41,409 nt of DNA, from positions 1 to 41,409 of IMG/VR virus record IMGVR_UViG_3300030329_003131, one strand, 5' to 3'. Position numbers and translations under genes: made by a program. This document shows, in pieces, positions 2,679 to 32,471 of this stretch; position 1 is the first letter of the stretch; each line of letters opens with the position of its first letter. The notes below the pieces were generated by a model that was not told the DNA's origin, searched no databases, and worked only from the letters and a program-made list of their open reading frames with translations. This DNA comes from a virus.

Positions 2679-5600
2679 TTAAGCGGACTCCAATGCCGCG
2701 ATTTTTGCCTCTGCCGCCTCCACGCGATCAAGCAATTCTTGGATTGCGACTAACGCTACTCCACTCAAGTCCTTTGGTGCGATGCTCGGATTTAGTATTT
2801 GCTCACCCTCGGCATTTAACACCTCTCGCCGTGGATCTTGCCCGATCTGAAAAGTATCCCAAAAATCTTCGGCAGTAGGAGAAACGTGAGTTTCAGTAAC
2901 AGGTTTATCATCGGGCAAATCGGCTTGTTTGTATTTCGATACCCGTAGTGTTTTGAGTTTCGGCAAAACACCATCGGGCCAAACTTCTTGGCGTGTTCCG
3001 TAGTATTTTTTGTTTGCCGCCGCAGAGGAATCAGTCCACACGCCACTCGATGATAATGTGCCAGCAACCGCCGAATTATTGCTGTATACCCGCAAATAGA
3101 AATAACTATCAATCGTACCGGCAGAAACATCGGTCACGAACCAACCACTCGACCCCACTTGGACTTTACTGCCGCCATCGTCTTTGTAGTATACGCCGTA
3201 CGCCCCGGCAAAATCGTTATCGGCAGGTGAGGAGGACTCCATGTAACTGTCAATGCTCGTACCCGTCACATTTCCAGAGGTTCCATGTACCAGAATTTGC
3301 GGTGCGGTAGTGTCTGAAATCGTCAGCCTTGCGCTGGGCGAGGACGTTCCAATGCCAAGGTCGCCGCCCACCAAAGCCATTTCTACCGCCTGTCCATTGC
3401 AGGCAAAACCCATCGTGTCGATGTTTTGAGTGTATTGGATATACCCTTTCCATTGATCGGGATCGCCGTTACCATCGCCAAACGCAAGTCGCCCAATACC
3501 ACTTGCGTTAGTAATTATTGAGACTCCGCTGCGAGTTGCAGTACCAGACGTATTGCCGACAACGAGAACTGCACCAGACGCATCTGTGTAGTCTTCTGGA
3601 TCGGTGATATTGATGCCGACTTTGCCCGATACCAACGCCATTGTGTCTGTAAGCGTTCCGGCTATTGTATTACGAAACTTGATCGACCCGTCCTCCGTCC
3701 CATCGGTAACATCGTCAGTGTACGCTTTTATATCACCAAACAATGTTTCCTCATCCGCTGAATTATCTGCGTAAAACCCAACAGATCCCACAGCATCAGC
3801 ATCAGCCGGAGAAGATCCCGTTTTGTAAAAGTGAAGCATCCCTTCGTGCTGATCGGCATTAGTATTTTCGATCTTGATTTTTGGATCACCCGCGCCAGAG
3901 CTTTTCAGATGCAATAAAGTGCTTGGCGCGTTCGTGCCTATGCCAATCCGATCAGTAGACGCATCCGCGAAAAATAGATTGGCATTGGAGTCGCCTTCTA
4001 TCCTAAAATCCTTATCCGCACCGGCTTCATTAAAGACAAACGATCCACCGTCAAAGCTCACATTGCCCGTTGCTGTCAACGCTCCCGTAACCGCAAGCGT
4101 CGAACCATCGAAGGTGAGGTTGGCCTCGCCATTCAAGGAGTTAGAATCCGTGAATGTAGCAATGCGGTTGTCTGCGCCATTAGCAGCATCCACGCTTCCC
4201 GCACCGGGTGCCGCTTCCCACGCAGGGACTGTACCAGCACCTCCGGTGGTGAGTACGTAACCGTCAGTGGACGCACCCAGTCGCGCCAAGAACCCAGACG
4301 CATTGCGGTAATACAGGTCGCCTGTAGCATCCGATCCCACTGCAATTCCAGCATTGGTGAAGATCAGATCGTCAGCACTCTCGTCCCAAAGCAAGTTGCT
4401 TCCACTGGTATCCCCATAGAACCTTACATCCTTGCCAGTCCCATTCACCCCTACGGTTACAGTGCCGGTAAACGTCTTGTCACCGGTGAATGTTTGCGTA
4501 GTGGTAAGGTGGGCGGTGTCAGCATCCAGATAGGCAGACGCGATTACCCCGCCATTCCAAGTCTTGTTCGTCAGGGTATGGGTGCTGGAGATTGTCGGTA
4601 TTGCAACTCCCTCAATGCTCAATATACCACTGGAAGCGGTTAGTGTATTCTCGGAGGCATGAGAGAGTTCAATGCCTGTAAATTGTGGGCTGTTACCAGT
4701 GCCTACTCCAATGCTTGTACGTAGGGTGGCCCCACTCTCCGCTACTGGGTCCGTTGTTCCATCCCCGACTATCATCTCCCCATCACCTAATACTGCCATC
4801 GCGGTTACAGCACCCGTCCCGCTGCCCAGCAACACACCCCCGTCCGTGAGGGAGGTCGCTCCTGTCCCACCGTAAGGCACGGTTACAGCAGTTCCTTGCC
4901 AAGTGCCAGTGCCAATCGTGCCTACGGTTGCTATATTGGTTCCACCCACGCTATGGGACGCGAAGTAGGTCGATACTGTATCGACGTTGGTCATCCGCAT
5001 CGTCCCGCCATCGTTGATGAGTATCCCATCACCCGATGCTACGGCAGTGGTGCCTCGCGCTGTTCCTCCGTCAATTAGGTTTATCTCAGCGGTAGTGGTT
5101 GTTACCCCGTCCAATATGTTGAGTTCAGCAGCAGAGGATGTAACCACCGTCCCAGCAAGAGAGAGGCCGTTTGTCCCATCGTGACTTGCGATATTAAAGT
5201 TGTAACTACCATCACTGAAAGTCGTATTCCCGGTGATCGTCGGCGTGTTGATCGTGGGGCTGGTGATCGTCTTGTTCGTTAAGGTATCAGTGCTGGATAT
5301 AGTGGGGATCGCCACACTCTCAATACTCAAGATGCCACCGGATGCGGTAAGCGTATTGGCCGAAGCATGAGAGAGTTCGATACCACCCGTAGCAGTGGTG
5401 GTTCCTGTAACCGTCAGGTTATCAGCTACGGTAGTCTCGCTGGTCGTGTGGCCTATGGTTACAGCAATGCCGGAAGTCTCAGTAGCCAGCTTTAGTGCGC
5501 CAGTGGCATTCGTGATATACGAGTCGCTTCCATCATGGTATAGCTGAAGATCATCTCCAGTTCCCAATTTGATATTCGCGCTATCAGGCATATCAATATG

Positions 5601-5888
5601 GGTAGTTGGGTTGATCTGCCCGGTTACACTGAGCGATCCAGCTACTATACCATCCCCGGCTATGCTTAAGTTGCGTATCTGATTGCCAGCAGTTCCATCA
5701 TCAAGATCCCGGTTGGCATCTAACACAAGGGCCTTTGATGCTGCGGCTATACCAGCGGTTACACCGAGGTTGGCAGCATTTAAATTGCCATTGGCTGTAG
5801 CTATAATATTGTCAAATTCAGCATTTAAGTCTGAGGCAGTAAGTGTCTCGCTCGCCGCCCAAGTCTTAGTTCTTGATATAGTTGCCAT
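2679..5888 (-). CDS. Tail fibre / tailspike with degenerate S74-like C-terminal chaperone
   Basis: This is a 1,069-residue fibre. The N-terminus (residues 1-60) is the particle-attachment type found in many aquatic-phage fibres. The shaft has repeated LTNKTITSPTINTPTITG-type beta elements. A block near residues 168-206 (GIELSHASANTLTASGG) recurs near 402-443, an internal duplication also visible in the DNA. The last roughly 110 residues resemble the intramolecular-chaperone domain of peptidase S74 fibres: IAPKDLSGVALVAIQELLDR followed by a terminal coiled coil. The usual Ser-Asp cleavage motif is not evident; the aligned region reads DSSAAANKKYYGTR, so self-cleavage may be lost. It would bind the host surface. 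Its start overlaps the upstream stop (TAATG). Confidence 0.9.
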   Translation of the reverse strand: MATISRTKTWAASETLTASDLNAEFDNIIATANGNLNAANLGVTAGIAAASKALVLDANRDLDDGTAGNQIRNLSIAGDGIVAGSLSVTGQINPTTHIDMPDSANIKLGTGDDLQLYHDGSDSYITNATGALKLATETSGIAVTIGHTTSETTVADNLTVTGTTTATGGIELSHASANTLTASGGILSIESVAIPTISSTDTLTNKTITSPTINTPTITGNTTFSDGSYNFNIASHDGTNGLSLAGTVVTSSAAELNILDGVTTTTAEINLIDGGTARGTTAVASGDGILINDGGTMRMTNVDTVSTYFASHSVGGTNIATVGTIGTGTWQGTAVTVPYGGTGATSLTDGGVLLGSGTGAVTAMAVLGDGEMIVGDGTTDPVAESGATLRTSIGVGTGNSPQFTGIELSHASENTLTASSGILSIEGVAIPTISSTHTLTNKTWNGGVIASAYLDADTAHLTTTQTFTGDKTFTGTVTVGVNGTGKDVRFYGDTSGSNLLWDESADDLIFTNAGIAVGSDATGDLYYRNASGFLARLGASTDGYVLTTGGAGTVPAWEAAPGAGSVDAANGADNRIATFTDSNSLNGEANLTFDGSTLAVTGALTATGNVSFDGGSFVFNEAGADKDFRIEGDSNANLFFADASTDRIGIGTNAPSTLLHLKSSGAGDPKIKIENTNADQHEGMLHFYKTGSSPADADAVGSVGFYADNSADEETLFGDIKAYTDDVTDGTEDGSIKFRNTIAGTLTDTMALVSGKVGINITDPEDYTDASGAVLVVGNTSGTATRSGVSIITNASGIGRLAFGDGNGDPDQWKGYIQYTQNIDTMGFACNGQAVEMALVGGDLGIGTSSPSARLTISDTTAPQILVHGTSGNVTGTSIDSYMESSSPADNDFAGAYGVYYKDDGGSKVQVGSSGWFVTDVSAGTIDSYFYLRVYSNNSAVAGTLSSSGVWTDSSAAANKKYYGTRQEVWPDGVLPKLKTLRVSKYKQADLPDDKPVTETHVSPTAEDFWDTFQIGQDPRREVLNAEGEQILNPSIAPKDLSGVALVAIQELLDRVEAAEAKIAALESA

Positions 5889-8083
5889 TAGTAAGTCCCA
5901 GTTGCTGAGTATGCTTCTATGTTGAGGTTGTCAATGTCTGATCTTGAAGTAGGTGTTCCCCGTGCTGCCCTGCTCAGTGCCTCTTGTATTGTAGTCTTCT
6001 TTTCTTTTGGGATATTTTCTTCAAGTTGGTTTATCAACCTACCCACATCCCATCCATACTTGGCCGAATCTTTAAGTATTCGCCACACCTTTAGTCCATT
6101 TTCATAGTCAGCGCCCATAAATTTATTTAACTTACCTTCATTCTTACTTAACCATTCCCCAAACCGAGGGTGACCTGCCGCCATTTTAGTTAGGAACCGA
6201 GGGTTCATCATAAGCATTGAACTAATAGCGCCCAATGCTCCGCCTACTGCCATGCCAGCAGTTGGGAATGAATCTCCTGTCATTGCGCCCTCAAACATCC
6301 CCACGCCCAACGCCCCATACATGGCGTGTCGCGCTACTAAATTATTCGCCACTATTGGACTTGCCACTGAAGCGATTAACATTGGGACAATATCATTACT
6401 ACCAGTCATCCGCTCTAAATCTTTTAAAAGATCCAGATTGTACCGCGCCATATCCGTATTGCCAAGTGTTTGTACTAATTTATTATATACCCCAGTCCTA
6501 ACCCCTTCACGCGGCCTCGCAAACTCTGTACCACTTCCAACTACCTGTCCGGGTTGTACCCCAAAAGACTCACTGAGATCAGACATGACAATTCTATGCT
6601 GCTCATAGTCACGCATTACTTTATTATAGTCTGGACCCAATAGTCGCCCAAGTTCTTCTTGCAATACTGTCCGTAGGTTATTGTATGCAACGCGGGCATC
6701 TCTCGTCATTTTGTCTTCGGGTGTAAATGAGTCGATTAATAGGTCCACCTCCCGCCTCATTTTATACACATCACGCAATGTTACCGGGGTTTCCATTCCC
6801 CAAGTGGTAGTATTAAAGTTGAGTATTTTTCTTAAAACCTCTTCAACCTTACTTGTCCTATCTTTTAAAAACTCAGACAATGGCCCTTTTTCTAAGTCCA
6901 CCTTCAATGGATGTATGGGGTTTTTGGGTTTTGGGACATCCTTTGGTGGATCAGGTAATTCTACTACATGGGTAATATCAAACCCTAAATCAACAAGCCT
7001 TTCTTCAATGGCCTCTTTTACTTCATGGTATGTATGCTTGTCTGTAAATTCGTCCAGCTTATCTCCCATTGCAGCCAGCCCCTTATTATAATGCTGGGAT
7101 GCTGACTTCTGTAGTTGATCTGCTCCACTATTTACCCTTAATATAAGTCGATCTATGCGCTCTGGTGAGGTTAGTTTTTGAAACTCTTTTATCCGGTCAC
7201 CCACCTTGATATTCTTGACTACGCCATTCTCAATAACTGGATCGTTGGATATATTAAGAGTTTCAGCTATTGTGCGGGGAGGAGATCCACCCATCATTGA
7301 TATAGGCTGCCCAAACATTTCTATAGAGTGACTCGGAACATTCTCTGCGCCTCTGCCCACTGTCTCTAATGGTATACCTTTATTAGTTAGGTCTTCCCAC
7401 TTTGATGGTATTTCCCTTCTAAGTATATCTGCTGTGCGAACAAAGCCTCGTGCAGTATTGCCTGTTAGAAATCCAAAATCAAGTCCCGCCACCTGAGATG
7501 CTGTGTGAGCAGTCCCGGCCAACTTCTTTACCATGCGAGGGACTTTAGTCGCCGCCGCCGCCGACCTCAAAGGCCCCGTAGGTGCTACTTGTGCCGCTGT
7601 AACCGCCGAGCGCAATGGGTCTGCTGATATACCTTGTGGACTTGCCTGATACCGGGCTTGTTCTACTACCGCATCTGCCAGCGCCCTCTTTTCTTTCATG
7701 CCCGGTAAGTCACGATGCCCTTTCCCTTGTCGAGTAAGGCCCGTAGCAATATCCCACCCTATTTCTGCGGTGCCAAGTGGATCAGAGATAAGATCAGCTA
7801 TGGCTGTCACCTCTTCGGATATTATCTCGCCAAACCTATCCCAAGTAGCATTTTCCCACATAATTTGGGGGTCTAATTCGCTATACTCTTGTGGTACAAT
7901 AGTAATACCAGCCGCGTCTATTATTCCCCTATCCTTGGAATAATTCCAAAAAACATCAGGACTATTATAGTTTGTCCCATACTCCGCCTTCATTGCCGCT
8001 ACTGTTCTGTGCTTATCATCCTCACTGAGAGTGGGCCACACATAATTCATAAACTCGCGGGTGGTTCTAAATTCAGTTTTCAT
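5888..8083 (-). CDS. 731-aa large virion protein, unknown function
   Basis: This is a large, mostly helical protein. It starts MKTEFRTTREFMNYVWPTLS. A region near residues 560-630 is Gly/Ala/Met-rich and hydrophobic (AVGGALGAISSMLMMNPR), which could insert in a membrane. No lytic transglycosylase or protease motif is found. It lies between the fibre and an 800-aa protein and overlaps the latter's stop by 4 bases, so the two are made together. In short-tailed phages this position is held by internal core or ejection proteins that enter the host during infection; that role is inferred from position and size. Confidence 0.8.
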   Translation of the reverse strand: MKTEFRTTREFMNYVWPTLSEDDKHRTVAAMKAEYGTNYNSPDVFWNYSKDRGIIDAAGITIVPQEYSELDPQIMWENATWDRFGEIISEEVTAIADLISDPLGTAEIGWDIATGLTRQGKGHRDLPGMKEKRALADAVVEQARYQASPQGISADPLRSAVTAAQVAPTGPLRSAAAATKVPRMVKKLAGTAHTASQVAGLDFGFLTGNTARGFVRTADILRREIPSKWEDLTNKGIPLETVGRGAENVPSHSIEMFGQPISMMGGSPPRTIAETLNISNDPVIENGVVKNIKVGDRIKEFQKLTSPERIDRLILRVNSGADQLQKSASQHYNKGLAAMGDKLDEFTDKHTYHEVKEAIEERLVDLGFDITHVVELPDPPKDVPKPKNPIHPLKVDLEKGPLSEFLKDRTSKVEEVLRKILNFNTTTWGMETPVTLRDVYKMRREVDLLIDSFTPEDKMTRDARVAYNNLRTVLQEELGRLLGPDYNKVMRDYEQHRIVMSDLSESFGVQPGQVVGSGTEFARPREGVRTGVYNKLVQTLGNTDMARYNLDLLKDLERMTGSNDIVPMLIASVASPIVANNLVARHAMYGALGVGMFEGAMTGDSFPTAGMAVGGALGAISSMLMMNPRFLTKMAAGHPRFGEWLSKNEGKLNKFMGADYENGLKVWRILKDSAKYGWDVGRLINQLEENIPKEKKTTIQEALSRAARGTPTSRSDIDNLNIEAYSATGTY

Positions 8084-10482
8084 TCTGGAACCCCCGTTGA
8101 GTCTTGTGCTGCTTCGCTATACAAATTGCTAAATGACTGTCCTTCAGCCTTAGATGCCTGTTCAATGCCCCCTTCTCCACTCCACACTACAGTCCCATCT
8201 TCGTTTTCTGTAAAATTATTATTAAACCCTTCCCCAAGGGTGTTTCTTATTGTATTGATATACTGTTGGCGTATTTTTACTACAGATGGATCACTCTGGT
8301 TTTTTAAAAACTCAGTGTTTATTTGTTCTACCATTCCCCGTATAGCACTCTCTGACACTATACCCCTTTTCTGTGCCGCCTTCCACCCCTTTAAGTCAAA
8401 TTCGCCACTTTTAGTGTAGTCCCACACCGGAACATGGAACTCCTGCTCGTTGCCAAACTGATCTACTATAGCCTCTCGTTTAGCCACAAGCATATCTGTT
8501 AGGTTTTGAAATAATGCTTTCGCTGTAACTTTCCTATCCGATCTTTCTGGTATAAGATTAGCAACCGCTTCTGCATCTTTATCTGATGGTCTACCGCCAT
8601 TAATTAATGAAGCAAGCTCTACTGTCCAGCCCTTTCGCGTGGACTCCCACACCGCCTCATCGACAGCCCAGAATTGGTGGATAGGAATGTGTCCAAATAT
8701 TGGCCCTGAAAGACTCTGTTTAAAGAATAATTCTTCCTTTTGCTGTATTTGTGCTATACCAGCATTAATATTTGCGATCTCTTTCTTGGCCCAAGCATCT
8801 AAGGAAAAACCTTCACGTTCCTCTTCTTGTGCTTCAAATTGGGCTGAGTTGTAGGCTAATTGATATGTTGCTAATCCGCCTCCGCCGCGAACTTTCTCTA
8901 AATCTGTAACCAGCCCCGGATTTTTCGCTAACATCTCAGAAAAAGTATCATTGGTCCTCCAGTTACTTTTGCCAGATTCTCGTATTACACGAATTAGCTG
9001 AGAGGGACCAAGACCCTTGGAAGTTGTTTGAATTTGCCCAGCAACCTTACCTGCCTCATATGCTGCTAAGGCAGCCTCTCTCTCTTCCATTGTTATGGGA
9101 TCGTTAGTTTTCTTTTCCCATTCTTCGAGTATATCTTCTAATGGCCTGCGCTCACCAGACAGAAAACCATATTGCGCTGACTCTTTTACGAATTTCTCAA
9201 ACTGCATTAAACTATTGTTTATTCTTGTCTTGTCCTTATTTCGTCTGGTTGTTCTTTCTTCTTTTTGCCCTTTTTCAAAGCCCTCTGAAAGCGAAGAAAT
9301 CAATGCCCTCTGTATTGCTGGAGATTTCTGCTTTAGGGATTTTAATAAATTTGGATTTAAGGATGCCTCTGGGTTACTATAAAATTCTTCCGTATCCCTT
9401 CCCTCTTTCCATTTTCTTCCCAAACTTTCACCAAATGCTTTAAATATTCCCTTATCTGTAGTTTCTTCTGCATGTGATGGAGAATCAAGTTTGGGCTTGG
9501 TTAGCTTAGTGAGAATAGCTTGTTGATCCAGTGCGCGTTGTGCTTCCCTCTGTTTAACAAACTGGTCAGCACCACTTGCAAGGCCCTTCATAATAGAGGT
9601 CATCTTCCCAGCGCGAGGGGTTTCCCTTGGGGCCTGAGCGACCATGTTACCAGCCAGTGCATTGATAAGGTTGGCCTGAGCTACGCCCTGTGCTTGTCTC
9701 TTGTCCGAAGCCGCAACATCTCTGCCGCCAAAGTAGGCACCACCCGCCGTAGCCAGCGCCCTCAATATACCGAGTCCGGTGTCCAGCCCACTTCGTTCGG
9801 TTACAGGTTCGCCATAGACCTCTTGGCCGCCACCCATTTGCGGCCCAGCCATATTGTAACCATCGACGGCCCTCTCATCGCCCGGAGCTAAGTCGGGTTG
9901 ATCCGGTTGAGCTACATCTTCTGCAACAGGAGAGTCTATTCCTTCGTACTCTGGAGATATTAACCCCAGTTCTTCTTTCTTGTCGCCGCCATACTGAGGC
10001 TGTATAGGCTGGCTAATGGATGGCTTGGCCGCCTGTCCAATAACAGACAACATTCCTCCGCCAAGTCGGGGGTCTACCTGTCGTCCTCCCGGCTCCTGTG
10101 CCAGTCTCTTATACATCTGGATGGCGGTACGCCTATCTACTCCAGACTCCTGCATTATCTGCTGTATTGCAGCCTCGACCTGTGGATCGTCGTAGGGCCT
10201 AAGTTCGGGCATTATATTGTCCGCCTGTTGCTGTTCGTATTCACTGAAAGCCTTAAAGAAGGCGCGGGACATTGGGTCGCGCTCCCAGCGTTCCCCGGTG
10301 CCACCTTCCATACTCTTTGAATATAACTCATCTGGCTCGTAACCGCTCCATATCTCATTAGCCCTACGCTCTATCGCTTGCCATGCTTCTGGGTCAGACT
10401 CAAGAAGCGCATTAAGCCGAGGCACCCACTGAGCTACGCCCTTGTATCCCTTAAGGCTGGGGCTGTAACCGTAGGCTGGCAC
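8080..10482 (-). CDS. 800-aa large virion protein, unknown function
   Basis: This is a long helical protein starting MPAYGYSPSLKGYKG. Residues 1-110 are compact. Residues about 120-240 are Pro/Gln/Gly-rich and probably disordered. The rest is charged helix with many Glu/Lys pairs. A short Gly/Ala stretch (LRALATAGGAYFGG, about 243-256) is the only hydrophobic piece. I do not recognise a family. It is the middle of three large genes between the tail nozzle and the fibre, coupled to the 731-aa gene, and is a candidate ejection or internal virion protein. Confidence 0.8.
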   Translation of the reverse strand: MPAYGYSPSLKGYKGVAQWVPRLNALLESDPEAWQAIERRANEIWSGYEPDELYSKSMEGGTGERWERDPMSRAFFKAFSEYEQQQADNIMPELRPYDDPQVEAAIQQIMQESGVDRRTAIQMYKRLAQEPGGRQVDPRLGGGMLSVIGQAAKPSISQPIQPQYGGDKKEELGLISPEYEGIDSPVAEDVAQPDQPDLAPGDERAVDGYNMAGPQMGGGQEVYGEPVTERSGLDTGLGILRALATAGGAYFGGRDVAASDKRQAQGVAQANLINALAGNMVAQAPRETPRAGKMTSIMKGLASGADQFVKQREAQRALDQQAILTKLTKPKLDSPSHAEETTDKGIFKAFGESLGRKWKEGRDTEEFYSNPEASLNPNLLKSLKQKSPAIQRALISSLSEGFEKGQKEERTTRRNKDKTRINNSLMQFEKFVKESAQYGFLSGERRPLEDILEEWEKKTNDPITMEEREAALAAYEAGKVAGQIQTTSKGLGPSQLIRVIRESGKSNWRTNDTFSEMLAKNPGLVTDLEKVRGGGGLATYQLAYNSAQFEAQEEEREGFSLDAWAKKEIANINAGIAQIQQKEELFFKQSLSGPIFGHIPIHQFWAVDEAVWESTRKGWTVELASLINGGRPSDKDAEAVANLIPERSDRKVTAKALFQNLTDMLVAKREAIVDQFGNEQEFHVPVWDYTKSGEFDLKGWKAAQKRGIVSESAIRGMVEQINTEFLKNQSDPSVVKIRQQYINTIRNTLGEGFNNNFTENEDGTVVWSGEGGIEQASKAEGQSFSNLYSEAAQDSTGVPE

Positions 10483-10485
10483 TGA

Positions 10486-10929
10486 TTATCTGAGGCCCCT
10501 TTTAAGACGCTCCCAGTCTATATTGGGAGAACCGCCTTGAGGAAAAGCCGGACCACCCCAGTTCAGCCCACCGGATACGCCCGGCGCACCCATGCCGCGA
10601 GCGGCTTGGTTGATCTTATTGGCTCCGCCAAATAAGCCCGACAGTGCATTAGTCAATGCCCCACCCTTGCTTTCAATGAGTTTCTGTACAAGATCCTGAA
10701 CTACCGGATCTCCCAACATACTCTCTGCTGCTCCGGGTGGCCTACGGTCCAAGGCTGTAGAGCGGCCCATCGTAGAGCTACCAAGGGCTTGTGTCATATT
10801 CCTCATAGACTCTTTGCGATCTGCTCTTCTTGACTCTCTGGCTTGCGCTCTATTGCCAAGTAGCTGACTAAGAAGAGTCATGCCCCCCTTAGCTAATAAA
10901 CTCAAAGTTACAGGATCAGGCATTGCCAT
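10486..10929 (-). CDS. 147-aa protein, possible small ejection / virion protein
   Basis: It starts MAMPDPVTLSLLAKGGMTLLSQLLGN: a hydrophobic, Gly-containing N-terminal helix followed by a very basic stretch (RAQARESRRADRKESMR). The C-terminal half is Gly/Ala/Pro-rich. The layout is reminiscent of small internal virion proteins that cross membranes, but there is no family match. Only 3 bases separate it from the 800-aa gene, and 13 from the 1,435-aa gene. Confidence 0.75.
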   Translation of the reverse strand: MAMPDPVTLSLLAKGGMTLLSQLLGNRAQARESRRADRKESMRNMTQALGSSTMGRSTALDRRPPGAAESMLGDPVVQDLVQKLIESKGGALTNALSGLFGGANKINQAARGMGAPGVSGGLNWGGPAFPQGGSPNIDWERLKRGLR

Positions 10930-10942
10930 TAGCTATTCCTTT

Positions 10943-13900
10943 TTATTCGTCTTTGGGTGTTGGTGTAGGACCGGGGCGATTTCTACTGTCTCGCAGCGCC
11001 CTGCGCTCCCAATCCGCACGGCGATCTATGGACTCTTGATCTGATCCGGGGTATATAATCCCAGCCAAGGCACTAATTGTCTCGGGCGGCAGATCAAGTT
11101 GAGTGGTGATGAGTTCAAATAGTTGCCTATTTGCATCAGAAAGGTCATCAGTGCCTAACTGAAGGTCTGGGTCAAGGGCAGACATCGCAGCAGCAAGGAC
11201 ATCCATATCAGCCTCTCTGCCACCAAGCGTCCTATCCTCTCCCAAGTACCCTAAGAGATCAGCAATGCCTATGTCGCGCCTCGACATAGTGTCGGTGAGG
11301 GCAGCGGCTCTATCCATAGCGCCCGTCCTCAAGTCCTGCATGCGCTTGGCTGCATCGCTCAGGACATCTGCTTCGCCTCTCATAGCTGCGGTATCATAAT
11401 CCACTAAGGCATCCGTGGTGTCAGTAGATGTAGTAAGGAGGCCAAGCCTATTAAGGTCTTCCTCAAGCTGGCTCCTTCCTTCCTTGGTTTGTTTGCCAAA
11501 ATCAGCAAGCAGTGAAGCTGTAATTGGGTCGGCGCGTAACCAATCCGAGTACGTTTTTCCCGGCGCTGTGCCAAACTCCGATGGATCTCGCCCATACGCT
11601 GCGGTTATCTGATCTTGTAAGCCCCTTAGCCATGCGTCTGTTCCAAATGGCATCTCATCTTCTCCTGTGGAAGCGTCACCTGCGCCATCCCCATCCCCTA
11701 CGCCATCCTCACCGCCAGCCGTTGCGAGTTTTCCGGCGCGAATTTCTTTAGTTAGGTCTGTATCAAGCCGTGCTATTGCTGTATTAAAATCCTCCGCACT
11801 CATTCTGCCTTCCAGAAAACCCTGTAGGTTCCCCCAGAAACCTTGATCCATGCCGCCAACAAAATTAGCCAGATCGCCTACGCCTGAAAACTGATTCCAT
11901 ATCTCTTCTGGCATCCCCATCTCGGTAAGATCTCTTATCCCAGAGAAGTCGAGTCCCAAATTTTGTAAATTGCTAAGTTGATCCTCTCCACTGAAGTCAA
12001 TCCCTACATCGCCGGGTAGTAGGTTTTGGCCGCTGAAGTCAATGCCTACATCACTGGGGATTAAGTCTTGGCCGCTGAAGTCAATCCCCACATCGCCGGG
12101 GATTAGGTCATCTGGAAGTCTACCCGATATAAGATTGAGGACGTTCTGGCGGCTTGGTAAAAAGCCACCAATTTGCTCATCTGTTAAGGTTTCAGGTAGG
12201 AAGCTGCTGATTTGCTCGTCTGTTAGCTTGTCGGGTAGCAATGCCTCTATTTGAGGGGTTAGGTCTGTTGGCATCGCACCTGTAAGTAAATCGGTTACAT
12301 TCTTCTCCAAACTGTCAGGCAGTAAGTCCTCTACTTGGGGGATTAAACTTTCTGGTAGTAAGCCGCCAATTTCCCCTTCTAAATACTTAGAAAAACGCTC
12401 CTTGGCGAACTCCTTTTGCAGTGGGTCAACGAGAGTACCAAATGGGTCAAAATTAGATACACTCCTTACTGTTTCATCCCATTGGCTGTCTCCACCAAAC
12501 ATTTCATTTACATAATCCACCATACCTGCTTCGATTGGATCGAAGAAGTCGGCTCCTCCCATCGCCCCCAACATTTGATCCCCGGTAATTTTACCAAGAG
12601 GCCCACTAATGGCCCCCAGTATTGCATCTTGGGTTACAGGGTCAATGGTAGGCTTCAGGTCTTGTATTCGACTTGCTGCACCACGAATAGCCATGTCTAA
12701 AGGGGAGTCTGCGCCAGTAGCATCTGCCAACGCCATTTCAAGGGGGTTAAAGAACGTGGTTGTATCTAACCCCATGTCTGCAAGGGTTGTTCCAGATAAG
12801 TCAGGAGGAGTTATTTCACTAATACGAGTCCCAAGGTCGCCAATTTCGGTATCTGCTGCTCTTTGGAATGCGTCTATAACATCTGCGAAGGTATTAACCG
12901 CCTCTGGAAGACCAAGGTCCGCAGCGGTTACACCCGGCAAGTCGAGATCAGCCGCACTTAGGCCCGGCAAGACTCCAAGCTGCTTCATGTCCGCTGCGGT
13001 TACTTTTGGAAGGCCAAGGTCTGCTTTAGTAAGTCCGGGCAGTAGTCCGGTTAAAAAGTCGTACATCTGCTCTCTACCCGGAACACCTAAGTCAGATACG
13101 TCCACGCTGGGAAGTTGTAAGTCGGCAACACTAAGTCCGGGTAAAACACCAAGCTGTCTCATATCCGCTGCGGTTACTTCTGGCAGGTCGAGGTCGCTTG
13201 CGGTTATCTTAGGCAAAAACTGTAATAATGCCGCTTGAAACTCATTTGGTGAGGTAAGGAATTGATTAAGTAAATCGGACTTGGTTACCTCATCGAAGGG
13301 GAGGGCTGATAGAATTTCCCCCGCTTCTGGCAAGCTAAGGTCACCAGCCTCAATCTTGGGCATCAAGCTCAGGATTTTATCTTGAAACTCTACAGGACGC
13401 ACCCCCGGCATCCTGTCCAGTATATCAGCACCAGTAATATCTTGGAATGGTAGCTCACCCAATATCTGAGCAGCATCCGGCATGTTTATAGCCCTCAACA
13501 CATCCATAGCACCCGGCAGAGATAAATCAGTAGCTGCGATGTCGGGCATTAAGTCGAGAACTTCATCCTTGAATGCAACTGGATCTACTCCGGGTAATAA
13601 CCCAAGCAAGTTATCGCTCGTTATATCGCCAAAGGGTAACTTGCCAAGTATTTGATCAGCATCTGGCATCGCCATCTTACCCAACAACATTGACGCATCG
13701 GGCATAATCAGCTTGTCTAATATATTCTGATCCGTGGGAAGTAGTCCCAATACAGCCTTAGATACAGCATCCTTTTCGGGTAATCCAAGCTGGTCTACGC
13801 CAAGTTCGGGTAGCTTGCCTTGCAAAAGACCAAGCATCGCTTGCTCATCAGGCATGGTCAGGTCAGAAGCTGTAATGTCTGGGAGAGATCCCAATACAGC

Positions 13901-15250
13901 GGTTTCTACAATATCTTCACTTGGCAATCCAATATCTTCTACGCCAAGTTCGGGGATAGCGCCCTTAATCAGGCCCTCCATCACTTCAGTATCAGGCATA
14001 GTCAGGTCACTTGCGGTAACCTGATAGGGCTGTAGCTCAGGAGTGAGGGCGGTTACAATGGCTTGCATCTCCGCAGCCGTTGGCATCCTGCCGCCCATCA
14101 TCTGGCTTATGACGCTCATTAACTCACGGTCTGCCGACCCCATGCCTGTAATATTGGAAAGGCGTTCATCTATCCCCGGCAACTGCTCGGCCATTGTCGT
14201 TATTTGGCTTGGTAATTGTCCAAGGTTAGGTACTTCTATTTCTCCGAGCGTATTACCAAGGAGCCTTGCCCTTTTTATCTCATCGTTAATGAGTTCTGTT
14301 ATACCCCCATCGCCGGGGAAAGTGCCTCTTATATCTTGATTCAGGGTTTGCAGTAAGGCATCGGCCTGATCTTGAGCCTGACCAATGCCAGCGGGAGGTG
14401 TAAAGTCTGTGATCTCACCAAGGAGGCCCTTGACCTTATCTGCGGCTATTGCCAAGCCTCCATCGGGGTATAATTCTCCCAAGCCCCCTGCCTGTGCATC
14501 AAACCCACTAATACCCGTACCGTAACCACCTCCCCCATATAGCCGCTGGTAGATGTCGGTTACACTGGTCCCTAAGTTCTCTATGGCGGGTAATTCGGGA
14601 CTCCATGCCTCTATCTGGCCTAATCGGTCTTGAATGCCCCTTAACTGGGTATCGTCAAAGTTTAAATTAAGATCAGCAAAAGAAGGCAGGGACGGGGGTA
14701 GATCCGAAAAGCCTTGAAAAACCGGGTCAAACACATTCCCTTCAGTGCCAGTTGGATCTGCGCCTTCTCTTGCCGTATAGGACCATGGAGTAACACCCGA
14801 TGATCCACCACCTTCGGCGGTGTCGGTAGACAGTGGACCTCCCCTTAGTGCCGGGAGAAATGTTCCTTGCCACCAATCATGGAGGGTGTCTCTGTCTTGT
14901 CCCTGAAGCTGAGATCCTTCCCTTCCTCCTATGTCTGAGGCATATCCGGGTATACCAAGAGTGTTAATGATTCCCTGAGCAATAGTGTCGCCCAACCCAT
15001 GTCCGCCTCTATTCCATGCAAGTTCAGCCAGTGTATTTCCGGGGTCCATCCCGTGGATGCCTTGATCCCATATTCCTCCAACATGGGCCTTCCATGGGTT
15101 GACAAGGGAATTAGTGAAGTCCACTTTGTTTCGACTGGCACCAGTGCTATCACCGCCATATCCAAATAGTGTTTCATCTAATGGCCTGTTTTTATTCGTT
15201 AGCCCTGTACCCTCAAACTTTTTAAAAGATCCCCCTGACGTTGCTGCCAT
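10943..15250 (-). CDS. 1,435-aa repeat-rich giant virion protein
   Basis: This is the largest gene in the window. Residues about 400-790 hold degenerate repeats built on the pattern xADLxLPxxxxxLxxLLPxI (for example ITASDLTMPDEQAMLGLL and LTKADLGLPKVTAADMKQL). Residues about 1000-1040 hold TDEQI-SFLP repeats. Residues about 1045-1090 hold three 14-residue repeats of the type LIPGDVGIDFSGQD, encoded by a 42-bp tandem repeat. The N- and C-terminal parts are non-repetitive. The amphipathic repeats predict a long helical rod. In a phage without a visible tape-measure gene, it may be an internal core, ejection or tail-associated fibrous protein. No enzyme motif is seen. It starts one base into the stop of the nozzle gene. 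Confidence 0.8.
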   Translation of the reverse strand: MAATSGGSFKKFEGTGLTNKNRPLDETLFGYGGDSTGASRNKVDFTNSLVNPWKAHVGGIWDQGIHGMDPGNTLAELAWNRGGHGLGDTIAQGIINTLGIPGYASDIGGREGSQLQGQDRDTLHDWWQGTFLPALRGGPLSTDTAEGGGSSGVTPWSYTAREGADPTGTEGNVFDPVFQGFSDLPPSLPSFADLNLNFDDTQLRGIQDRLGQIEAWSPELPAIENLGTSVTDIYQRLYGGGGYGTGISGFDAQAGGLGELYPDGGLAIAADKVKGLLGEITDFTPPAGIGQAQDQADALLQTLNQDIRGTFPGDGGITELINDEIKRARLLGNTLGEIEVPNLGQLPSQITTMAEQLPGIDERLSNITGMGSADRELMSVISQMMGGRMPTAAEMQAIVTALTPELQPYQVTASDLTMPDTEVMEGLIKGAIPELGVEDIGLPSEDIVETAVLGSLPDITASDLTMPDEQAMLGLLQGKLPELGVDQLGLPEKDAVSKAVLGLLPTDQNILDKLIMPDASMLLGKMAMPDADQILGKLPFGDITSDNLLGLLPGVDPVAFKDEVLDLMPDIAATDLSLPGAMDVLRAINMPDAAQILGELPFQDITGADILDRMPGVRPVEFQDKILSLMPKIEAGDLSLPEAGEILSALPFDEVTKSDLLNQFLTSPNEFQAALLQFLPKITASDLDLPEVTAADMRQLGVLPGLSVADLQLPSVDVSDLGVPGREQMYDFLTGLLPGLTKADLGLPKVTAADMKQLGVLPGLSAADLDLPGVTAADLGLPEAVNTFADVIDAFQRAADTEIGDLGTRISEITPPDLSGTTLADMGLDTTTFFNPLEMALADATGADSPLDMAIRGAASRIQDLKPTIDPVTQDAILGAISGPLGKITGDQMLGAMGGADFFDPIEAGMVDYVNEMFGGDSQWDETVRSVSNFDPFGTLVDPLQKEFAKERFSKYLEGEIGGLLPESLIPQVEDLLPDSLEKNVTDLLTGAMPTDLTPQIEALLPDKLTDEQISSFLPETLTDEQIGGFLPSRQNVLNLISGRLPDDLIPGDVGIDFSGQDLIPSDVGIDFSGQNLLPGDVGIDFSGEDQLSNLQNLGLDFSGIRDLTEMGMPEEIWNQFSGVGDLANFVGGMDQGFWGNLQGFLEGRMSAEDFNTAIARLDTDLTKEIRAGKLATAGGEDGVGDGDGAGDASTGEDEMPFGTDAWLRGLQDQITAAYGRDPSEFGTAPGKTYSDWLRADPITASLLADFGKQTKEGRSQLEEDLNRLGLLTTSTDTTDALVDYDTAAMRGEADVLSDAAKRMQDLRTGAMDRAAALTDTMSRRDIGIADLLGYLGEDRTLGGREADMDVLAAAMSALDPDLQLGTDDLSDANRQLFELITTQLDLPPETISALAGIIYPGSDQESIDRRADWERRALRDSRNRPGPTPTPKDE
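11991..12110. repeat. 42-bp tandem repeat inside the 1,435-aa gene
   Basis: Units begin at 11991, 12033 and 12075, each starting CTGAAGTCAAT on the plus strand. A 42-bp unit keeps the reading frame and encodes 14 residues (VGIDFSG-D/N-LIPSD type). The copies differ by a few bases, so the expansion is not brand new. Confidence 0.85.
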
Positions 15251-16854
15251 TATTCTACTCCCACTCTACGCTTGCGCTTTTGGCCCAGAGGCTTATAAGC
15301 AAGGTGTACATTGCGAAACACAAATGGCTCATCAGCATCAGTGTTTTTAACGATCAGGCTTGTATGGGCATCGTACCCTTGTAACCGGACATCTCCATAA
15401 ACTACTTTTGGCTTGTTTGGGAACCCAGCGCCGAGAGGGTCTGCGTCAAGGGTAAAAGCGCCAAGTACCCCCTCAGTTATACCCATGCTCAATACGCTGG
15501 GCGCACCACCGACAAGGCCAGCCGATGCTTGCTGTACTTGAACCTGCCAATCGCCGCCCTGCTCATCGAAGTAGCACCGAGCATATACCCACCTCTTGCG
15601 TACCACATCATCCTCAGTATGGCCGCTCGTCTGGAAAGAAGCTACGATAGCATCGGTTTCGTCTTTGTCACCAACCGCGAGGTCTAAGAGCTTGCCGGTG
15701 TAGGTGCCGCCATGGGGCTTGTTGTCTATAAGTGCAGCGCAGTTGATCTCCCGATCTTCATAGGGACCAAACCAGAAGTCATCAAGGATATTGTATATAA
15801 TAATAGAGTTGAACTTAACCTGAGTGGTAGGCTCAGAGGAGTCTGTAAAGAAGAACCAAACCTCATTCTCATTAGGGTAGTAGACCGCAAACCCATCCTC
15901 AAGTCCATCATGTTGATTGTCTTGGCGACTCACCCTCAACTTGCTCCAGTAACCGGCATCCAAGGCTTGGGACTTTTTCTCTAAGGCTTCTCCTCCATCC
16001 CAAGAGTATATACCATCGCGCCGAACCATCATCTGAGTTCCATCTGGCAAGGCGATAGTATTGCGACCACCTATCCCGCCCTGCGTTGTAACCGGCTTGA
16101 TGGAGTATGGGGTATTTGCCGTTCCCGTTGGTGACAACACCCAGATACCTGACTCTGTGTGGACAGCCAATGAGTCATCTTGGGCCACCAGTGCTGTTAT
16201 GGGACCACCAAGGTCGTAGTTGCCCTCCCAACTCTCATAGTTGCCAGCCCCGGATCGGTATACCCGGTCTTTTTGTGCGCTTGATCCACTGCTATTTGCT
16301 ATCCAAAGCCTATTGTCCCAATGGGCAATATGGGCTGCCGTGGTTACACCAGAGGGCAGTGCGCTCCATGCGGTGATCGTCGCCCCTCCAGCCGCCTTGA
16401 TTGGTGGGTCTTCCCCATTCAGTGCATACAGCACCCCGTTGGCGTTGACCCACTGCCACACGTAACCATTGCTGCCATCCACATCATCTGCGGTGATGGT
16501 TACAGATCCCCTGCGGTTCACCCAATCCGCGTCACTGGCCCCGGTATGTTCGTAGTACTCGTCCTTGACGAACATGAACGTGTACTTCACATTCGACGCA
16601 TTCACCCACTGACCACACCCGGTTACTGTATTGATGACTGGGTCGCCGGGCGATGCCACCGCAGTCTCAAGGGCCGATTCGCCATTGTAGCTTGCCGATC
16701 CCTTGCGCTTCTCTACTTGACCAGCCGTACCGATCCGACAATTTACCGTAGAGGCAAGTTCATCAGGTAGGGTGTTTTCAGTAGGCTTATCATACCTTAC
16801 GCCACCCATCCATGGACCCAATACAACGGTCTGACCTTGGCGGATACCCGGCAT
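15250..16854 (-). CDS. Tail nozzle / stabilisation-like beta-propeller protein
   Basis: The frame opens at 16887, but the ATG at 16854 overlaps the upstream stop (TAATG) and has GGAAGGA upstream, giving 534 residues starting MPGIRQGQTVVLGPWMGGVR. The early part (LPDELASTVNCRIGTAGQVEKRKG) is the usual opening of phage proteins that list genome-wide beta-strand blades. Repeated short Trp/Gly/Asp strands follow (AHWDNRLWIANSSG, VRRDGIYSWDGGE, NEVWFFFTDSS). This pattern is known in short-tailed phages for the tail tube or nozzle (T7 gp12-like, P22 gp10-like), which closes the portal channel below the adaptor. It is coupled to the adaptor gene, as expected. Confidence 0.75.
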   Translation of the reverse strand: MPGIRQGQTVVLGPWMGGVRYDKPTENTLPDELASTVNCRIGTAGQVEKRKGSASYNGESALETAVASPGDPVINTVTGCGQWVNASNVKYTFMFVKDEYYEHTGASDADWVNRRGSVTITADDVDGSNGYVWQWVNANGVLYALNGEDPPIKAAGGATITAWSALPSGVTTAAHIAHWDNRLWIANSSGSSAQKDRVYRSGAGNYESWEGNYDLGGPITALVAQDDSLAVHTESGIWVLSPTGTANTPYSIKPVTTQGGIGGRNTIALPDGTQMMVRRDGIYSWDGGEALEKKSQALDAGYWSKLRVSRQDNQHDGLEDGFAVYYPNENEVWFFFTDSSEPTTQVKFNSIIIYNILDDFWFGPYEDREINCAALIDNKPHGGTYTGKLLDLAVGDKDETDAIVASFQTSGHTEDDVVRKRWVYARCYFDEQGGDWQVQVQQASAGLVGGAPSVLSMGITEGVLGAFTLDADPLGAGFPNKPKVVYGDVRLQGYDAHTSLIVKNTDADEPFVFRNVHLAYKPLGQKRKRRVGVE

Positions 16855-17762
16855 TATAGTGATCCTTCCGGTACGCCGTATGTCCACCCAGAATCAGTCA
16901 TGGGTGGCAGCATCTGTCGGGTTACAATATCCCCAAGTACGTCTATGTTGTTCCTCCTTGCCCTACTCATAGCCTTCTGAAACTCAGCCTCTTCAATCAA
17001 GCCCCCCTCATCATCGCCCTCCTGCTGCTTGAGCAGTCGAGCTATTCCAAAATATAATGCTGGCTGAACGATAGGATGGATGTAACCATCCAAGGAGTCA
17101 GTGTCATTTTCTACTGTGAAGTCAGGGGTGTAGGAGTAGTACTGGTAGGTAATAGACTCGTTAGTAGTAGAGTCCATTGGGTATAATGCAAGCTGTATAA
17201 CCCCGGAAGAGTCAATACCCCATGGATATAAGTAGCATGGGGTACCCTTCTCGGTGAAATCGGGGTCTTGGCGCTGTATAATGCGAGGACGCTCTATAGA
17301 GAGTGTGTCGTTACCAGATTCGTTAAACGCACTGATAAGGGACTGTACGTTGCTTGCCCCAGAATACAACCTCGTAGTAGTGTCGCTGACGTAGGTTCCC
17401 AGATCCCCAGAGCTTGTACCACTAACTGTATCGGAAGTGGTAAACGTCCCAGATTCCGACTTGAAGGTGAGGGTGGACTCCCCAGCGGTATGGGATACTA
17501 CAGTAGCTGTTGCACTGGAAGAACTGCCTGTGATTGTATCTCCAGCAGTATATTGCTCAGAGGAGCCAATACCGGAGAGGGTCATTGTCTTAGTAGTAGT
17601 AATAGTCCCAGTTTTGAACTTCCACCACCAAGTGGCATCTCCCTCAATCTCTTTGATTACCGCATTGAGATAGGTTCTGCCGTAGTCCTTGTAGGCTGTA
17701 TTTGTCTCTTCAAGACCAGCCCTTCTGAGGCCGACCTGTATAGTAGCGAGAACAGTTGCCAT
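16854..17762 (-). CDS. Head-tail adaptor protein with inserted beta domain
   Basis: This is a 302-residue protein. Residues 1-50 (VGLRRAGLEETNTAYKDYGRTYLNAVIKEIEGDATWWW) and the C-terminal helices (GYIHPIVQPALYFGIARLL, EAEFQKAMSRARRNN) are typical of short-tailed phage adaptor proteins (gp4/gp11-type) that dock under the portal ring. Between them, residues about 52-135 are a Ser/Thr/Gly-rich beta insertion (TGTITTTKTMTLSGIGSSE), probably a surface or decoration domain. It lies directly upstream of the nozzle-like gene, the classic order. Confidence 0.8.
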   Translation of the reverse strand: MATVLATIQVGLRRAGLEETNTAYKDYGRTYLNAVIKEIEGDATWWWKFKTGTITTTKTMTLSGIGSSEQYTAGDTITGSSSSATATVVSHTAGESTLTFKSESGTFTTSDTVSGTSSGDLGTYVSDTTTRLYSGASNVQSLISAFNESGNDTLSIERPRIIQRQDPDFTEKGTPCYLYPWGIDSSGVIQLALYPMDSTTNESITYQYYSYTPDFTVENDTDSLDGYIHPIVQPALYFGIARLLKQQEGDDEGGLIEEAEFQKAMSRARRNNIDVLGDIVTRQMLPPMTDSGWTYGVPEGSL

Positions 17763-19086: not shown

Positions 19087-20097
19087 TTAGGCCGCAGTCA
19101 TGGCTGTAGAACGTCCCAGCCGTGCGCGGTGATTGGTGGTCAACTGCATTCCAGCAACCACAAACGCAACCTTTGCAAGCTGGTTTGACGGTTTCTCAAA
19201 TGGAGTCTTGGCGAAGTTCATGCCAGCCTGAACCTTGAGTTTTAGAAACTTCTTGTTGATAAAGTACATCTCCGATGCGGGAGCATCGCGGTCAGGAACA
19301 ATAGACGCGCCACGGAAGGTCGGGTTACGACCATCCACGCCCACGCGACCACCAACCGTGGTCCTCAAATGCCCGGTACCCTCGAAAATCTCCTCATAGT
19401 TACCATACAAATCATAGTTGGTAAAAATGATGTCAGGCGATTCGTTACCTTCCGTGCAAAGGTTCCACATATCGCCCATCTTGGCAACGCCGTCATAGAT
19501 ATCGCCATTGGTTTTCGTAAGGAAATTAGTGGCAAGAGCCGTGCTGTCGGTCTGGTTGGCCCACCACGTATGCTCCGACGCTGTAGAGGTGATGCCACCA
19601 AGAGCGCCAATCCCGTTCTGGCCCTTCGCACCCGCAGTAAGAATGTCCTGCAAGCCCAACATCGACTTGCCACTCTGGGCGCTGAAGATTTGAGAGTTAG
19701 CCGTGTCAAAAGCACCCTGCATCGCCTGCGTGGTTTTAGCTTCGATGAGCTTAATAGCCCGATCAGAAGCCCGGTTTTCCATCTCCTCGACATGGGAGAT
19801 CACGATGGGTACCGCGAGGTACGACCAATCGTAGATGGCGGCGGTGATACCGTCGATGCGATCCGTTGCCAGAACATCGTAGGTGTCGAACCACTGACCA
19901 CCCTGAAGTGCGTACATGAGATCCTCTTGGATCTGCTTGCCGCCGTTCTCGGTTTCGATCATACCAGACTTGCGGAACTCGCCAAGGGTCGGATATGAGT
20001 CCGAGATATTGTCGGTCAGTCTCTTGCGCTTGGCTCGCATTGTAAGCGTCCATAGCGCATCAAAACTTTCCGTAGAACTGGAATTGGGAACGGCCAT
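19087..20097 (-). CDS. Major capsid protein (HK97-type)
   Basis: This is a 336-residue protein. The C-terminal part carries the marks of this capsid family: NPTFRGASIVPDRDAPASEM followed by YFINKKFLKLKVQAGMNF, then TPFEKPSNQLAKVAFVVAGM ending LTTNHRARLGRSTAMTAA. The middle has the spine-helix region (MENRASDRAIKLIEAKTTQA). It forms the head shell. It follows the scaffold gene and precedes the decoration gene, the standard order. The GGAG site and ATG at 20097 are clear. The assignment to this role is strong; the fold is inferred from the family. Confidence 0.92.
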   Translation of the reverse strand: MAVPNSSSTESFDALWTLTMRAKRKRLTDNISDSYPTLGEFRKSGMIETENGGKQIQEDLMYALQGGQWFDTYDVLATDRIDGITAAIYDWSYLAVPIVISHVEEMENRASDRAIKLIEAKTTQAMQGAFDTANSQIFSAQSGKSMLGLQDILTAGAKGQNGIGALGGITSTASEHTWWANQTDSTALATNFLTKTNGDIYDGVAKMGDMWNLCTEGNESPDIIFTNYDLYGNYEEIFEGTGHLRTTVGGRVGVDGRNPTFRGASIVPDRDAPASEMYFINKKFLKLKVQAGMNFAKTPFEKPSNQLAKVAFVVAGMQLTTNHRARLGRSTAMTAA

Positions 20098-21082: not shown

Positions 21083-21499
21083 TTACTCCTTTGCATCGTC
21101 TGGAGAGGATATCCATTCTGCGGCAGGAAGCGAGTCTTTATCCGTCCCCGGCAGAATTTCAATGTCCTTATCCAAAGCAGATAGTGCCGGTGCATGGTCA
21201 TCGGCGCGGTAACATCGTGACCCTCCCACCGGATCGGAGGATTCAATTACGCCGTATTTCTTTAATAATGCTTGCTTATGGGATCTGGACTCAACCACTT
21301 CTCCAAAACATGGCTCATACTTCCCATACATAGAAGAGTTAGTAGGGTGTATGAAGTTGGTTGTATTCCAAAGCCTCATTGCTTTCTGGTTACACTCAGG
21401 ACAGTCAAGAGTGTTTACTATAGACTTCTTGCTGGTAAAGCAATGCTCCCAACTATAATTACACTTTTCGCACTTAAAGTCAATAAGGGTTACAGACAT
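21083..21499 (-). CDS. 138-aa zinc-ribbon protein
   Basis: The N-terminus has two CxxC pairs, CEKC (residues 10-13) and CPEC (33-36), in an FmdB-like zinc-ribbon setting (FKCEKCNYSWEHCF, LDCPECNQKA). The C-terminal part includes SHKQALLKKYGVIESSDPVG, seen in proteins encoded between portal and scaffold genes of related phages. It is coupled to the 46-aa gene upstream (TAATG). The function is unknown; a metal-binding head-assembly factor is a fair guess. Confidence 0.75.
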   Translation of the reverse strand: MSVTLIDFKCEKCNYSWEHCFTSKKSIVNTLDCPECNQKAMRLWNTTNFIHPTNSSMYGKYEPCFGEVVESRSHKQALLKKYGVIESSDPVGGSRCYRADDHAPALSALDKDIEILPGTDKDSLPAAEWISSPDDAKE

Positions 21500-30861: not shown

Positions 30862-30863
30862 GG

Positions 30864-32330: not shown

Positions 32331-32387
32331 TTTCTCTCTCCCGTGAGAGGTTATTTTCCCGGCCAGCCGGGTGCTGGTCGGACTCAC

Positions 32388-32416
32388 AATATAGGTAAAG
32401 GGACTACGATATGCAA
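32388..32416 (-). promoter_or_regulatory. Sigma-70-like promoter for the MoxR operon
   Basis: On the minus strand TTGCAT (32411-32416) and TATATT (32388-32393) are separated by exactly 17 bases. The predicted start of transcription is near 32381, giving a 5' leader of about 50 nt before the TTG start. This promoter decides against the longer N-terminus. Confidence 0.65.
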
Positions 32417-32471
32417 GCGACAATTTATCGACCGTCAAACTGGGGGGTCAATTAATCGTCACTTCCCCGAC

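Follow-up and report, generated by a model that had tools for sequence, protein, structure and literature searches.

A large acidic repeat protein with a conserved helical anchor domain in a putative ejection module of uncultured podoviruses

The 41,409-nucleotide viral sequence analyzed here (the window) raises the question of what a very long, repeat-containing protein might be doing directly after the tail nozzle gene. This protein, P0001, is the product of a genuine, ATG-initiated ORF of 1,435 aa (10943..15250; this and all other features described here are on the minus strand), as proposed in a reading made without database searches (hereinafter, the sequence-only reading). The start codon of P0001 and the stop codon of the nozzle gene share a one-base overlap, and the gene belongs to a densely packed operon in which the gaps or overlaps between genes span 1-34 bases. 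Downstream of P0001 lie, in this order, the genes for a 147-aa basic protein (pI 11.1; 10486..10929), an 800-aa protein (8080..10482) and a 731-aa protein (5888..8083), followed by the gene for a 1,069-aa tail-fibre-like protein (2679..5888). P0001 itself is strongly acidic, with a computed pI of 4.1.

Judging by its genes, the phage is a podovirus: the major capsid protein (19087..20097) matches NF033394 capsid_maj_Podo (E 7.6e-59), the adaptor of the tail tubular A type (16854..17762) matches PF24175 SU10_adaptor (29.1 bits against a cut-off of 27), and the nozzle of the tail tubular B or P22 gp10 type (15250..16887) matches the virion structural proteins of phrog_3287 (E 5.9e-22). The portal (21658..23742) shares ~50% identity with its syntenic counterpart in distant loci and remotely matches a 'head to tail joining protein'. 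Among the genes scanned, none was recognized as encoding a tape measure, tail tube or tail terminator, in agreement with the proposal of a short-tailed phage lacking a tape-measure gene. The order of nozzle, internal virion proteins and fibre is also found in the genomes of phiGT1, Mx8, T7 and P22 (PMC10386132).

The repeats in P0001 are genuine and occur well beyond chance expectation. Among the 53 hydrophobic-Pro dipeptides of the protein, 15 pairs are found at a lag of 24 residues, 14 at a lag of 10 and 12 at a lag of 14, compared to a largest count of 5 at any lag in 500 shuffles of the sequence; the spacings of 14+10 or 12+12 add up to a 24-residue unit. The sequence contains 13 instances of the strict motif [DE][LIM]x[LMIVF]P (mean 0.9 and maximum 5 in 2,000 shuffles), so the reported count of more than 20 ADL/LP repeats holds only under a looser motif. 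The first block (~residues 405-785; 12896..14038) consists of the 24-residue unit, with steps of 14+10 or 12+12 between the hydrophobic-Pro pairs; the second (~residues 960-1046; 12113..12373) has steps of 12-14 and includes a TRF row at 12171-12253; next to it lie the tandem 14-residue repeats (11991..12109; TRF period 42, 2.8 copies, 84% matches), in accord with the three copies noted previously. The LRV repeat is a 24-residue helical solenoid unit of two short helical pieces; P0001 resembles it in having a 24-residue unit of this build but has no Pfam LRV match. The two repeat-bearing regions (~residues 405-785 and ~960-1087) make up about one third of P0001, and both ends, including an N-terminal segment with 25 invariant columns across three sequences (residues 74-138; 14837..15031), are free of repeats and conserved in relatives, so that describing the protein as made largely of repeats was an overstatement.

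The sequence-only reading further envisaged a probable rod, perhaps an internal core or a DNA-ejection tube. The AlphaFold model of P0001 is all-helical and consists of short helices predicted with low confidence (pLDDT 55), so the rod is not supported; the AF2 model of a second family member, L060, is similarly all-helical, with short helices and poor overall (pLDDT 44.7), and nothing in these or any other results speaks for a tube. Foldseek comparison to the PDB yielded no match at E <= 0.001, and all VIA structure rows for both models were under Z 8, mostly on the generic hairpin. One of these rows, for the ejection protein DEV gp72 (Z 6.8, rmsd 3.9, 74 residues), was set aside because it was tied with unrelated chains. 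The viral Foldseek search gave two good matches, one to A0A1B1IR09 (E 3.5e-9) and one to A0A516LE70 (E 2.4e-7), both unnamed proteins.

Conservation in P0001 is highest outside the repeats, in a C-terminal helical-hairpin domain that had been overlooked. This 'anchor' domain (~residues 1202-1371; 11138..11647), delineated by a profile match to distant relatives, HMM hits and the AF2 model, is a domain of ~165 aa common to all family members. In the model of P0001, it forms a helical hairpin (helices ~1242-1268 and ~1276-1333) with a short strand pair, and the L060 model displays the same fold. The anchor profiles of the two main groups match each other (prob 98.0, E 3.1e-13), and the anchor HMM also matches loci that were left out of its construction. 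The relatives were located through their nozzle and capsid, not by P0001 itself, and include L002 and L003, whose syntenic homologous ORFs encode 1,192 and 1,264 aa. In all 20 of the 20 distinct contigs with a complete post-nozzle ORF, the slot between the nozzle gene and the other three genes of the module, with the fibre gene beyond them, is occupied by the same kind of protein, with the anchor present; these proteins are 853-1,440 aa long (mean 1,184, s.d. 145), although their repeats are unlike. The repeats of the relatives are wholly different in kind from those in the window whereas the small anchor is kept, in a C-terminal or central location, and even the side of the anchor on which the repeats lie varies. 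Of the neighbors, the 731-aa protein, with a single TM-like segment (residues 565-584), is homologous to its counterpart in the distant group across 548 columns (prob 98.4), the 800-aa protein shows a weak profile match to that group (prob 21.9), and the 147-aa protein is a syntenic small gene of the module; the fibre-like protein, recognized by its sequence and without a family match, has an N-terminal part with 73% identity to L005.

Searches beyond these loci returned little. Direct scans with P0001 detected no relative in IMG/VR or in the phage collection, and tblastn with four members (those from the window, L024, L091 and L106) against 50,697 phage records found none either, the only rows being two chance ones with the window query (E 4). 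The anchor alignment retrieved from IMG/VR only the two known contigs and from the PDB nothing credible (E 0.17), and the alignment of the 731-aa protein had no match in 84,980 bacterial and archaeal genomes. Sequence look-ups likewise matched P0001 to no named family, with no hits in PHROGs or NCBIfam, a single sub-threshold hit in Pfam (LRR_14, 10.5 bits against a cut-off of 40) and a best E of 0.33 against the PDB. No sequence or profile match was found to any ejection protein of T7, P22, Mx8 or phiGT1, and T7 gp14, P22 gp7 and P22 gp26 were rejected as homologues on profile comparison.

The virion structural proteins of phrog_6121 (Mx8 p54 and phiGT1 gp17) are encoded in the slot of P0001, behind the nozzle (and acetyltransferase) gene, but are ~330 aa long, repeat-free and mostly S74-ended: phiGT1 gp17 carries a Peptidase_S74 domain, and by eye such a C-terminal domain is present in five of six sequences of this type and absent in ctMlz233. 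Pfam detected no Peptidase_S74 domain in P0001. One of 17 anchor sequences gave a marginal phrog_6121 match in PHROG (E 0.08), and the best hhalign overlap, although insignificant, falls on a motif of similar appearance; the homology to phrog_6121 and Mx8 p54 that this motif led us to expect was rejected on profiles (hhalign prob 0.3% and 0.4%). Separately, a phrog_6121-type profile faintly touches (E 0.018) a small ORF that follows the long gene in L099.

The location of the gene, the identity of its neighbors and its rate of divergence together make an internal, ejection-related role the best-supported reading, so this part of the earlier proposal stands while the tube does not. We lean, if slightly, towards P0001 being an ejection (internal virion) protein of an uncultured podovirus, encoded first in its module and larger than the other members, and it is probably among the proteins injected with the DNA. 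Its gene shares with T7 gp14/gp15/gp16 and P22 gp7/gp20/gp16 the position between nozzle and fibre, and the 800-aa and 731-aa proteins sit in the positions of T7 gp15 or P22 gp20 and of T7 and P22 gp16, respectively. In sequence comparison of the window with L002, the nozzle (92% identity), adaptor (90%), scaffold (86%) and capsid (82%) are conserved, whereas P0001 (52%) diverges like the 147-aa (52%), 800-aa (40%) and 731-aa (37%) proteins. Ejection proteins are reported to diverge far faster than the portal, and those of the gp15 type have been paired by synteny and size because their sequences are too diverged (PMC8954989, section 4). Near-absence of cysteine is another shared trait: the 20 proteins contain no cysteine in 23,575 residues, compared to 63 in 10,142 residues of 20 nozzles, and the ejection-type proteins of T7, P22 and phiGT1 included in the computation are also cysteine-free, except for one residue in T7 gp14. 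As a control, the ORFs for fibre and scaffold in these contigs were found to lack cysteine as well, so this trait does not separate P0001 from a fibre and was dropped as proof of ejection.

Unlike the T7 and P22 ejection proteins, to which it has no detectable homology, P0001 carries long repeats and an anchor of its own, and would be a fourth, larger and extra member of the module because each T7-type part already has a candidate. Its size does not fit the T7 gp14 type (~200 aa, with predicted membrane helices); no hydrophobic segment was called in P0001 (maximum 1.13), but the test is insensitive since it misses T7 gp14 too (1.31). Against the ejection reading stand this surplus to the T7-type set, the lack of a match to known ejection proteins and the acidity of P0001, those of T7 and P22 having pI 5.6-9.5, although two proteins of the phiGT1 module have a pI of 4.9.

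An unlikely alternative places P0001 outside, as a needle or central fibre inserted in the nozzle, with the anchor binding the nozzle and the repeats forming a freely varying shaft. Proteins of the P22 gp26 type are trimeric coiled-coil fibres seated in the nozzle, the P22 needle gene comes immediately after that of the gp10 nozzle, as P0001 does, fibres commonly exchange shafts built of unrelated repeats, and the fibre ORFs here are equally devoid of cysteine. Yet gp26 is a protein of 233 aa, profile comparison with it within a set of 14 proteins yielded no match (E 0.77), the anchor here is C-terminal or central, and the monomer models, of low confidence, show short helices with prolines between them rather than a continuous coiled coil. 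Furthermore, P0001 diverges like the inner module, not like the fibre N-terminus or the nozzle, and the annotations show no separate needle gene in this slot for phiGT1 or for Mx8, which is among the nearest named capsid matches. Considerably less probable is a non-virion assembly factor, acting as a scaffold or chaperone that brings the ejection proteins together at the portal before departing: T7 gp13 and P22 gp14 are encoded near the same place, phiGT1 gp16 has the annotation 'head assembly protein', and the scaffold ORF (pI 4.5) has low cysteine and acidity in common with P0001, but gp13 and gp14, at 138 and 151 aa by their coordinates, are small, and P0001 has no sequence likeness to these factors. 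Tail tape-measure proteins are long, helical, repeat-rich and length-variable, but a ruler-like role for P0001, in which the array sets the assembly length or the reach of an ejected conduit, is very improbable despite the narrow length range of the family and some weak viral Foldseek rows to tape-measure proteins (E 0.025 or worse), given that this type of phage, with adaptor and nozzle only, has no tail tube to measure and that lengths differ by 243 aa (1,192-1,435) within the window's own group while the nozzle is nearly constant.

Returning to the ejection reading, we give a modest preference to an architecture in which the conserved helical-hairpin anchor is joined to a long acidic array of short helical repeats that differs by lineage. 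Copies of P0001 would be packaged in the head around the portal together with the 147-, 800- and 731-aa proteins, would exit through the nozzle before the DNA and would refold in the host envelope, where the anchor might link the protein to the conduit and the array could serve as a replaceable spacer or sleeve, extended in shape and with little dependence on its exact sequence. Conceivably, although we consider this rather doubtful, P0001 represents an undescribed ejection-module family with one anchor and an exchangeable spacer, in which each lineage has different, seemingly non-homologous repeats on either side of the anchor while ~1,200 residues are kept, and the array purely sets length or volume, being fitted, for example, to the depth of the host envelope.

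The current understanding of envelope conduits in podoviruses rests on a few models, namely, T7, P22 and N4-like phages. Here, a whole group of uncultured podoviruses has, in what appears to be the same module, a repeat protein of 850-1,440 aa in which the repeats are swapped between lineages. If this protein is ejected, the family would amount to a natural experiment on where an ejection protein requires its sequence and where length alone suffices.

The 1,435-aa ORF (10943-15250, minus strand), packed closely with the surrounding genes (gaps or overlaps of 1-34 bases), encodes a protein whose repeats, claimed in the sequence-only reading, clearly exceed chance: hydrophobic-Pro pairs occur 15 times at lag 24, 14 times at lag 10 and 12 times at lag 14, against a maximum count of 5 in 500 shuffles. 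The repeat unit is 24 residues, built from 14+10 or 12+12 steps, with 12-residue steps forming an exact run in the homologue from a close relative (L003), and the three tandem 14-residue copies reported by that reading were confirmed. The further description of the protein as made largely of repeats was too generous, as the repeat blocks cover only about one-third of it.

The 41,409-base virus record encodes a capsid protein of the capsid_maj_Podo family (E 7.6e-59), an adaptor matching the SU10 adaptor family and a nozzle matching phrog_3287. When the capsid of L024, a member of a distant group of relatives (the L024 type), was used as the query, the closest named capsids, from a Bradyrhizobium phage, Mx8, Mx9, BUCT555 and others (8 records), showed ~25-29% identity. 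Two contigs from one metagenome, L002 and L003, are close relatives of the window with identical gene order, and their homologues of the main protein (1,192 and 1,264 aa, respectively) retain its ends while the middle varies. A nozzle alignment yielded 29 further contigs at 38-43% identity, and a capsid alignment contributed the best 80 of 175 matches; all sources together gave 72 nozzle ORF rows.

A helical-hairpin domain of ~165 aa, the anchor, was present in all 20 distinct contigs with a complete main ORF immediately after the nozzle gene, a set that includes the window, omits repeat entries of one contig, and is not fully independent (L024/L025 and L089/L091 are nearly identical pairs, and L095/L103 are close). 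In the many contigs that break off inside the post-nozzle ORF, the anchor was visible or the contig ended before any was found. In L063, which was excluded, a closed ORF of 159 aa precedes an open one that lacks the anchor, possibly reflecting a frameshift. Because the profile behind this count was partly built from the counted sequences, a fairer test is the search with a profile from the window group and L024 type alone, which matched ten loci outside the training lineages (L106, L070, L060, L105, L103, L039, L095, L089, L091 and L083; E 4e-22 to 5e-10). Between these two groups, the anchors aligned with hhalign probability 98.0 (E 3.1e-13, 122 columns, 32% identity), and the homology was recovered again with full-length alignments.

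Around the anchor, the architecture differs. In 10 of the 20 proteins, the anchor is near the C-terminus, with 26-123 residues after it and the main repeats before it; in the other 10, 374-821 residues follow. The best repeat period, which for each protein is the best lag found, uncorrected for the choice among lags, is 24 in the window, L070, L083, L089 and L091, 23 in L060, 26 in L106, 27 in L105, 33 in L039, 14 and 36 in L002 and L003, 29 and 58 in L095 and L103, and 62-91 in the L024 type; lag counts detected no hydrophobic-Pro periodicity in the L024 type, L039, L095 and L103. The AF2 model of window protein residues 236-1435 (15 sequences; mean pLDDT 55, pTM 0.30) is almost wholly helical, the best-scored parts being residues ~615-685 and the anchor, a hairpin with helices of 27 and 58 residues. 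The model of the L060 homologue (mean pLDDT 44.7) reproduces the hairpin and strand pair of the anchor and shows two short helices in each 23-residue repeat (pLDDT ~55-65). Judging from these low-confidence models, a repeat unit probably comprises two short helices. Structure searches with both models retrieved no outstanding solved fold.

The likeliest role of the main protein, in our estimation with moderate confidence, is that of an ejection-module protein. The corresponding stretch in T7, P22, phiGT1 and Mx8 is annotated as encoding internal virion, ejection or virion structural proteins, and one study describes Mx8-like and LUZ24-like structural modules, arranged as tubeA, tubeB, internal virion proteins and then fibres, and places numerous podoviruses from marine metagenomes in the LUZ24-like group (PMC10386132). 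Among the module neighbours, the 731-aa protein is homologous between the two groups, the homology of the 800-aa protein is doubtful (probability 21.9), and none was detectable across the groups for the 147-aa protein. Between the window and L002, the main protein is 52% identical and its module neighbours 37-52%, compared with 82-92% for the nozzle, adaptor, capsid and scaffold and 73% for the fibre N-terminus; an equivalent contrast between ejection proteins and portal is reported in a review (PMC8954989). The main rival explanation, that the protein is an external needle or fibre, appears rather improbable. Unlike the T7 and P22 ejection proteins, the window protein is acidic (pI 4.1), which counts against the ejection role. 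Cysteine is absent from the 20 main proteins (0 in 23,575 residues, versus 63 in 10,142 for the nozzles), as it is from the remaining module proteins included in the count. The scaffold and partial fibre ORFs lack it as well, so this cannot separate an inside from an outside location.

Several other genes merit mention. The fibre-like protein (2679-5888, minus strand) contains numerous TTAEINLIDG-type stretches, and one piece is 60% identical to L014 despite a preceding module unrelated by BLAST, which suggests exchange of fibre parts. A small ORF 3' of the long gene in another contig (L099:17875-18273, plus strand) gave the best match outside L009 to the Mx8 p54/phiGT1 gp17 profile (E 0.018) and is perhaps the true counterpart of that protein. 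In the tail module of a distantly related podovirus (L006, MW202803; 23805-27743, minus strand), a 1,312-aa 'chromosome segregation' protein, compared with PHROGs, may be another long protein of this kind. In the window, a 138-aa zinc-ribbon-like protein (21083-21499, minus strand; weak match), retained in L002, lies between the portal and scaffold genes. A 799-aa ORF adjoining the terminase (25138-27537, minus strand), far longer than a plain methyltransferase, gave nothing in the family scan apart from a weak methyltransferase match below the cut-off. Two adjoining genes (30025-32438, minus strand) encode a DUF7192 protein (E 3e-24) and an AAA ATPase with a long Gly/Glu-rich insert that matches phrog_249, 'porphyrin biosynthesis' (E 5.9e-40), and look like a CobS/MoxR-type pair.

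Searches of open-licence papers showed us no description of a family of this kind. The novelty, seen directly in the compared proteins, is that the repeat array is replaced around a retained anchor; we infer that the array acts as a spacer.
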